Of a stretch of DNA of 64,000 bases, positions 18,636 through 19,617 are shown in pieces. This stretch comes from Rhabditoides inermis (taxonomy: Eukaryota; Nematoda; Chromadorea; Rhabditida; Rhabditidae). Each line of letters opens with the position of its first letter. The stretch's first letter is position 1. The position numbers and the translations under genes are program-made. The DNA lies in contig CAWZYM010000409.1 of the NCBI GenBank assembly GCA_963966185.1, positions 616,001-680,000 on the forward strand, given 5' to 3'. The notes beneath the pieces are model-generated. The model had not been told where the DNA came from. It worked only from the letters and a program-made list of their open reading frames with translations, and did no database searches.

Positions 18636-19617
18636 ATGAGCAACATCGATAAACTCTTTTCGAAGATGTTTACGAGGGCTCGTGTACTGTGCGAAGTGAA
18701 GGTGAAGACGGGAAGGATCGAGAAGATGAGCGGTGACTGTGTAGTCAACGCAGCCAACGTGGGACTGATTCCCGGTGAGTGTTCATATCAGTTCCCATTC
18801 CATTTTTTTTTCGTTTAGGTAGCGGAATCGACGGCGCGATTCGGAGGGCGGCCGGGAAGAAGCTCACTGATGAGACGAGCGCTCTCATGCAGAGCAGAGG
18901 GAGGAACCTCGACGTTGGAGAGGCAGTGGTCACTAAGGGCCACAAGTTGTGCAAGAGTGAGCTCTCTCTCTCTCTCTCTCTCTCTCTCTCTCTCTCTCTC
19001 TCTCTCTCCTCTCTCTCTCTCTCTCTCTCTCTCTCTCTCTCTCTCTCTCTTCGCTCTCTCTCTCTCTCTCTCTCTCTCTCTCTCTCTCTCTCTCTCTCTT
19101 TCGCTCTCTCTCCCTTGCTTTTTCTGTTTACGAAGTATTCCCCTGTTTAACTGTTCCTTTCAGGAATCATCCACGTGGCTGGTCCGTATGTGAATGAGGG
19201 CACGGCCCCCTCGCAGCACCAGTGTGACCAGCTCCGAATGGCGTACCGGAATGTGTTCCAGAAGGCGGAGGAGCTTAAGGTGCAGAGACTGGTGAGTACA
19301 CAACACAAAAACAATATCAAACTGTTTTTTCAGGTCGTCCCTTTCCTATCGATTGGAGTTTTCCACTTCCCTAAGGAGATGGGAGTGAAGATCGCGATGG
19401 ATGAAGCGTGGAGATTCAAGAATACGACCTCTGTAAGTTACACTACATATCGAATTTATGGTTCAACGTTTTCCCAGGCCGTGGAAGTGGTTGTGTTGGT
19501 GTGCAGTGATGCCCACATCACACAACTCGCAGACAGGGACAACGAGCGTCGATACCAAGAACAGTACGATCGCGTCGTGAGGAAGGTGCGAGAGGAGAAC
19601 GCGCGGAAGATGATGGA
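18636..19617 (+). CDS. Gene 1 exons 1-5: macro (ADP-ribose-binding) domain
   Basis: Exons 18636-18774, 18819-18956, 19164-19291, 19334-19432 and 19478-19617 join in phase to about 214 residues. Macro-family landmarks appear in order: GRIEKMSGDCVVNAAN (family GDI..-VNAAN), GSGIDGAIRRAAGKKL (GGGV-AI-AAG), IIHVAGPYV (IHxVGP), VVPFLSIGVFHFP (PxISTGxxGYP) and VEVVVLVCSD. The asparagines of VNAAN are kept, but the GD aspartate reads as Arg and the STG/GYP loop is altered to SIG/HFP, so binding or hydrolase activity is uncertain. Such domains bind ADP-ribose or remove it from proteins. The start is the ATG directly after an acceptor-like TTCAG. Exon 5 leads in phase into exon 6, so it belongs to the Helitron protein. 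Gene 2 has no counterpart. Confidence 0.85.
18958..19110 (+). repeat. (CT)n microsatellite inside intron 2 of gene 1
   Basis: About 150 bp of near-pure CT between donor AGA|GTGAGC and the acceptor CTTTCAG at 19163. It is the largest example of the CT/GA tracts found in many introns of both Helitron genes. Confidence 0.95.

Follow-up and report, generated by a model that had tools for sequence, protein, structure and literature searches.

A macrodomain inside a nematode Helitron, probably fused to its Rep-helicase

A Helitron Rep protein nicks DNA and its helicase peels off a strand, and such structures call PARPs. DarTG acts on single-stranded DNA, and the polyproteins of positive-strand RNA viruses bring together a macrodomain, a cysteine protease and a helicase. 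Published passages on canonical Helitrons give them a 5' TC, a 3' CTRR, a palindrome ~11 bp before the end and A/T insertion (PMC4067079), and passages on their gene content list accessory domains that have been kept, namely RPA, OTU and AP endonuclease modules (PMC6431247) as well as VTD deubiquitinases (PMC9741609). Regarding ADP-ribose, the portions of the literature drawn on here report that viral macrodomains counter host ADP-ribosylation (PMC7232374), that human MACROD2 and TARG1 strip mono-ADP-ribose off DNA ends in vitro (PMC5725667), and that the DarG macrodomain of DarTG offers a precedent for a macrodomain on DNA, in reversible DNA ADP-ribosylation (PMC5179494). No macrodomain in a Helitron was found described in open-licence papers (partly judged by title), and no open-licence title combining a macrodomain, a transposable element and ADP-ribose concerned such an element; in a survey of viral ADP-ribose systems, neither 'helitron' nor 'transpos' occurs in the main text (PMC9503650). 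Protein searches, within their length limits, returned no macro-Helitron protein from another species, one of them giving five PARP14-like proteins. The original prediction, made from the DNA letters, gave no macrodomain as known among Helitron accessory modules, and the protein and open-licence literature searches agree with it.

Here we analyse the window, a 64,000-nt stretch of DNA from the nematode Rhabditoides inermis. On balance, its sequence is best explained by a nematode Helitron family whose Rep-helicase gene has probably gained an N-terminal MacroD-like macrodomain, which would serve as an ADP-ribose eraser or reader during transposition. Like canonical Helitrons, the family has a Rep with HUH and Tyr motifs, a PIF1 helicase, a 5' TC, a 3' hairpin with CTAG, and ends that may fit A/T insertion; it differs in its predicted N-terminal macrodomain and protease-like region, in the at least 59 exons of its gene models, in its length of ~18.4 kb, and in a palindrome that reaches the very end rather than lying ~11 bp before it, as in passages of PMC4067079. 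With the OTU- and VTD-bearing Helentrons and Helitrons, as excerpted in three papers (PMC9741609, PMC4067079, PMC6431247), it would share an accessory domain acting on host protein modification and joined to or beside Rep-helicase, but here the modification would be ADP-ribose, and the gene model of the C190 copy has no AP endonuclease, OTU or VTD match. As in positive-strand RNA virus polyproteins, three kinds of module would meet in one replication protein; any homology that we propose stops at the macro fold, however, and here the carrier is a DNA transposon with a rolling-circle Rep.

Macrodomain exons within a Helitron

The features of the macro-bearing gene (gene 1) and its surroundings are given below in window positions. 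Macro exons 1 to 5 were placed by joined-exon reading, PF01661 and copy comparison, and exon 6 by joined-exon reading and copy comparison.

18255..18635, plus strand: 5' leader common to other copies; its left edge (~18255) is the truncation point of copies A, B and C, where a satellite repeat abuts
18624..18634, plus strand: acceptor-like site TTTTCGTTCAG directly 5' of the macro ATG, of the type used in SL trans-splicing
18636..18774, plus strand: macro exon 1, carrying NAAN
18819..18956, plus strand: macro exon 2, carrying GSGIDGAIRRAAG
19164..19291, plus strand: macro exon 3, carrying IIHVAGP
19334..19432, plus strand: macro exon 4, carrying SIGVFHFP
19478..19617, plus strand: macro exon 5, domain end; an unspliced reading frame would run into TGA 19619-19621, shared in part with the GTGAGT donor
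19724..19841, plus strand: exon 6, the first exon 3' of the macrodomain, in phase
19971..20793, plus strand: weak candidate for a degenerate first protease-like unit (approximate exon limits)
21406..22196, plus strand: cysteine-protease-like unit, H-x16-D-x46-Q-x5-C (exons 21406-21446, 21495-21567, 21813-21920, 21981-22051, 22101-22196)
24147..24510, strand not applicable: 364-bp insertion that breaks the coding region of copy A; it has a 9-bp duplication (agactgaag) and is missing from B and C
24779..28107, strand not applicable: 3.3-kb insertion, likewise missing from B and C; by its motifs we take it to be Harbinger-like
30049..30741, plus strand: Helitron_like_N (Rep), with HIHLLL then YMYKYIFK motifs (Pfam and gene models)
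33348..34859, plus strand: PIF1-type helicase with GSGGCGKT and LIDEMSM (Pfam and gene models; limits approximate)
35688..35837, plus strand: last exon and stop of the Rep-helicase gene (gene model)
36285..36289, plus strand: GCTAG, 3' end of copy A; compared with B and C, ~370-390 bp including the left hairpin arm are missing just 5' of it
47951-62940: gene 2, another Helitron Rep-helicase, which has protease-like units and is without a macrodomain (gene models)

Joined at consensus splice sites, exons 1-6 (18636..19841) give 254 codons with no stop. The original prediction had read ordered macro landmarks in five exons, and these do follow one another in the spliced protein (NAAN, GSGIDGAIRRAAG, IIHVAGP, SIGVFHFP); the HMM check proposed with it, the joined exons against Pfam PF01661 (Macro), matched the whole profile (residues 37-156, profile positions 1-118 of 118, E=3.6e-29, 101.6 bits with a cut-off of 22 bits). 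The in-phase run from exon 5 into exon 6 is also present at the sequence level, its frame kept in 8/8 copies. Among solved structures in the PDB, the best matches of the macrodomain are a PARP14 macrodomain, then E. coli YmdB and MacroD-type enzymes. Splice sites of the six exons fall at the same places in eight of nine copies, and those of exons 1-4 in all nine, the copy L016 being broken 3' of exon 4. A (C/T)AG site adjoins the macro ATG in 9/9 copies (TTTAG in L020), as expected for SL trans-splicing, and both SL1-like loci examined in the assembly hold the exact SL1 leader, which marks the genome as that of a nematode. Several introns of gene 1, introns 2 and 5 among them, are made up largely of CT or GA dinucleotide repeats starting at or near the donor.

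Profile searches of the assembly that holds the window (172.6 Mb in 599 contigs) gave at least 23 exon matches to Pfam Macro in at least 18 loci, and at least 80 matches to Helitron_like_N in at least 61 loci. At 8 of the 18 macro loci a Rep locus lies 6.9-10.7 kb downstream on the same strand, where 0.05 would be expected, and a ninth copy (C410:285080) has the same macro and following exons without a Rep match; at least nine copies in this one assembly thus carry the macro exons, with splice sites kept. Host-type genes account for most of the remaining nine macro loci, alongside two members of a second family described below (C285, C87:1425247) and ambiguous loci such as C114, whose gene model is without any Pfam match. 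Open frames of 1,868-2,852 aa hold 29 of the 61 Rep loci, none of which pairs with a macro locus. These 29 loci are another Helitron type, and many are clustered on a few contigs (C418, C419, C420, C131, C95 and others).

The window's copy A (~18255-36289) has two near-identical counterparts, B (C410) and C (C409), which are without its two insertions, and six diverged copies (two on C109, and one each on C410, C98, C190 and C87) that are 82-99% alike to copy A in aligned stretches. Copies A and C are 99.9% alike over the 1,580 nt 5' of the ATG, most of which is flank, and copy B shows this flank too, on the far side of a 6.95-kb insertion. The three copies appear to be duplicates of a single insertion within a satellite array, and because of this the nine copies represent at most seven independent loci. 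Copy A is broken by its two insertions, which occur in it alone among the copies compared; it is also truncated 5', and of the termini it keeps only the 3' CTAG. We rejected 18255-36284 as the whole element, since A, B and C are 5'-truncated and A is without a stretch near its 3' end.

The element ends come from other copies. A 5' block common to three of them (L016, L018, L019) starts ATCGAAGCCGTCCG, or (A)TCGAAGCCGTCCG with the preceding A, and a 3' block common to four (B, C, C98, C190) ends ...CGCGCCCCGCTAG(TC), with a strong hairpin and CTAGTC. The diverged copies show Helitron termini, 5' TC and 3' CTRR (TC... hairpin-CTAG), and these three 5' ends and four 3' ends bracket the gene; complete elements measure 18,450 and 18,374 bp (~18.4 kb), with the macrodomain inside. 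The 3' hairpin (-35.1 kcal/mol, RNA energies) includes CTAG itself, its palindrome reaching the very end. An A precedes 3/3 of the 5' ends, and T follows 4/4 of the 3' ends, with C after that T also in 4/4. Because an A before TC and a TC after CTAG are common to all copies compared, the exact cuts, between A and TC and between CTAG and T, are provisionally placed by analogy with canonical Helitrons; a search for an empty site with the joined flanks of one copy gave nothing that spanned the junction in the sequence analysed. Copies with a 5' end (L019/L037, L018/L034, L016/L035) have 2.7-3.4 kb 5' of the macro ATG, with ~150-bp repeats in some, and a minus-strand gene sought in this 5' region scored 1.2-4.3, a weak coding signal.

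The macro exons are part of a Helitron: they lie between its ends, and 8 of 18 macro loci are paired with Rep. The macrodomain is upstream of and in phase with the Rep-helicase, as had been claimed.

Constraint on the macrodomain and its junction with Rep-helicase

The macro exons are under strong purifying selection, as constrained as Rep and helicase and more so than the protease region. Eight copies, compared over exons 1-5, give 28 pairs. In the 25 with synonymous changes dN/dS is 0.08-0.18; the other three, among A, B and C, are free of such changes, and C differs from A and B by three nonsynonymous ones. For L016, dN/dS over exons 1-4 is 0.06-0.18 in eight pairs. The synonymous excess between the macrodomains of A and L018 reaches P=1e-10, copy pairs not being independent. 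Across B, C190 and C98, with columns of local identity below 60% dropped, dN/dS is 0.08-0.12 for the macrodomain, 0.07-0.11 for Rep, 0.03-0.13 for the helicase and 0.22-0.28 for the protease region.

A purpose-written simple gene finder returned one gene in each of three copies: 59 exons and 2374 residues in B, 67 and 2610 in C190, and 64 and 2534 in C98, where the C190 and C98 models overrun the stop seen in B and have untrustworthy 3' ends. All three models run in the order macrodomain, cysteine-protease-like region, zinc motif, Rep and PIF1 helicase. The typed C190 model has Pfam matches to Macro, Helitron_like_N, PIF1 and Pif1_2B, with Rep and PIF1 helicase in one protein (PF14214, E=4.6e-36; PF05970, E=1.7e-36); it has no Pfam match to AP endonuclease, and the copy B protein ends after the helicase. 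The protease-like exons 21981-22051 and 22101-22196 were read by eye and from the C190 model, the window gene model having skipped both. The spacing in this unit is 17 residues from His to Asp, 47 from Asp to Gln and 6 from Gln to Cys, values that fit C48/Ulp1. A Ulp1-like protease had been proposed, and of that proposal the active-site pattern (H-x16-D-x46-Q-x5-C) stands, while the family assignment found no credible Pfam or PDB match: no C48/Ulp1 profile appeared up to E=10, with only unrelated matches at E 0.14-0.4. Within Pfam, neither VTD nor OTU matched the C190 model or protease-like region.

The second protease-like unit and the zinc motif, in the later part of gene 1, show clear homology to gene 2 (tblastn E=7e-18 and 3e-19). 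The original prediction also saw homology between the N-terminus of gene 2 and the exons that directly follow the macrodomain, a claim that did not survive: from exon 6 onward the two are collinear with 20% identity over 76 columns, which is not significant (E=1.2), and we dropped it. Because gene 2 has protease-like units, Rep and helicase and no macrodomain, the macrodomain appears to be an N-terminal addition to a Rep-helicase gene.

How the macrodomain came to lie here, and whether it belongs to the Rep-helicase polypeptide, allows several readings. That the macro exons are a neighbouring host gene outside the element, the case named as able to overturn the original prediction, has next to no chance of being right: copies whose flanks differ all hold the macrodomain within the element ends, and it takes the same place 5' of the Helitron exons in the compared copies, so we regard a neighbouring host gene as ruled out. 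Helitrons often capture host gene fragments, according to passages of PMC6431247, and the macrodomain could by that route be functionless cargo caught by chance, but purifying selection as strong as that on Rep and helicase, a full-length domain with intact splice sites in 8/9 copies, and the position of four host-type macro genes away from the Helitron macrodomain in a tree make this highly improbable, and the low dN/dS rules out neutral cargo. No direct host source gene was found, the four host-type macros falling elsewhere in a tree with long branches.

More weight attaches to a macrodomain made as a separate ~216-residue protein of the same Helitron, ending at the exon-5 TGA, with the Rep-helicase starting in exon 6 from its own trans-spliced leader in the style of a nematode operon. 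The exon-5 GTGAGT donor overlaps an in-frame TGA directly 3' of the exon in 8/8 copies, so that translation of an unspliced message would yield the macrodomain alone, as a protein of possibly ~216 residues; ATGs lie near the start of exon 6, and gene 2 shows Rep-helicase with protease-like units existing without a macrodomain. Gene models are almost indifferent, the fused-minus-split score being 2.6 in B, 4.5 in C190 and -1.3 in C98 (36.7 in C410b, where the model is unreliable). Against two proteins, the gap between exons 5 and 6 (intron 5, 76-183 nt) holds no AATAAA-type 3'-end signal in 8/8 copies, a strong GTGAGT donor and then a run of CT stand at its start, as in intron 2 of gene 1, and the frame is exact across the junction in 8/8 copies. 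We consider separate proteins unlikely, and judge it likely that the macro exons are spliced to the downstream exons to make one polypeptide of macrodomain, cysteine-protease-like region, zinc motif, Rep and PIF1 helicase. Of the original prediction, location and phase are borne out, the macrodomain also recurring in at least nine copies under purifying selection, and a single protein is probable.

Active-site residues and a putative role in transposition

In common with MacroD hydrolases (MACROD1/2, E. coli YmdB, OiMacroD) it has a whole domain, NAAN and GID motifs, and the catalytic Asn and Asp; it differs in a loop-1 Gly to Ser change, a helix His to Arg change, a Gly to His change in SxGVxG, and an extended loop ahead of the GEAVVT strand. 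In the alignment with YmdB, N41 and D51 fall on residues 25 and 35, which correspond to OiMacroD N30 and D40; both are present in 9/9 copies, and the aromatic of SxGV(Y/F) that stacks on the distal ribose is kept as F145 (Tyr in L015). ADP-ribose binding by the macrodomain is likely. Excerpts of PMC5413906 identify YmdB D35 and OiMacroD N30 and D40 as active-site residues, report a G37 Val mutant of OiMacroD as least active on protein, and describe H44 as a helix histidine and T131 and G135 as hinge positions. Mapped by motif, OiMacroD G37, H44, T131 and G135 correspond to Ser48, Arg55, Ile142 and His146, and because of these replacements hydrolysis may be weak or lost.

A catalytically dead reader, which would hold ADP-ribose (for example PAR at nicks) and tether Rep to damaged or open chromatin while removing nothing, is accordingly a serious possibility, if short of an even one. 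In its favour are the Ser, Arg, Ile and His just listed and a top single PDB match to the PARP14 macrodomain, which is without the Asp; yet catalytic Asn and Asp are present in 9/9 copies, YmdB and MacroD-type hydrolases come next among the PDB matches, and Arg likewise occupies the histidine position in the bacterial relatives P0001, P0003 and P0006.

It is an evenly balanced proposition that the Helitron macrodomain binds ADP-ribose and either removes or reads the ADP-ribose set by host PARPs where Rep works. Rep nicking and strand-peeling by the helicase would leave nicks and single-stranded DNA, and at these, or on the chromatin where Rep acts, host PARPs would place ADP-ribose; a macrodomain tied to Rep would sit where these marks are made, and by erasing or reading them might keep repair signalling or silencing from aborting transposition. 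As the macrodomain is kept intact by selection, these Helitrons may, like some RNA viruses, interfere with host ADP-ribose signalling. A selected ADP-ribose module in a transposase that nicks single strands points to ADP-ribosylation as something that transposons must perhaps manage in the germ line.

A second macrodomain family and other features of the window

A second set of macrodomains is found at C285 (L028, C285:278636-283183), where one gene has a macrodomain (Pfam E=4.9e-16) ahead of a transposase-like region; this region has a SWIM-like motif, and we take it to be Mutator-like by its motifs. The C78 locus (L039, C78:190183-195297) keeps the same arrangement of parts and is 86-93% alike to it where longer stretches align, and both have ~178-bp tandem repeats upstream. 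A relative at C87:1425247 (L026) matches Macro at 8.7e-8, its SWIM match falling below the cut-off. Since the C285 and C87 proteins gave no MULE match at E<=1, 'Mutator-like' is our reading of the motifs; PF10551 (MULE) has three matches in the assembly, none of them at macro genes. For the transposase relatives at C127 and C350, the assembly profile search returned no Macro match.

In a midpoint-rooted tree with long branches, in which host and bacterial macros served for comparison, the second-family macrodomains group with those of the Helitron (support 93/98 for all and 89/79 for C87, below the star level of the tree tool). Both families have a longer loop in common, apart from the host and bacterial macros used; the C285 protein is without the catalytic Asp. 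Perhaps a transposon-specific macrodomain is common to nematode DNA transposons, placed at the front of the gene in both cases (at least nine Helitron copies; the Mutator-like SWIM-type gene at C285 and C78 and its relative at C87), and in the Helitron strips ADP-ribose off transposon DNA that is nicked or single-stranded, or off nearby proteins, a counter-defence parallel to that of viral macrodomains; we offer this broader reading as speculative.

A repeat unit present eight times flanks the Helitron on both sides (6278-18108 and 36282-42194), with a spacing of ~1.9-3.2 kb within each side. Among these repeats lie two minus-strand ORFs (7716-8864 and 13191-14135), presumably reverse-transcriptase-like by their motifs. 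An inverted repeat at 1064-2182 and 2239-3357 has arms of 1,119 nt that are reported 100% complementary, with 56 nt between them and abundant 9-bp tandem repeats.
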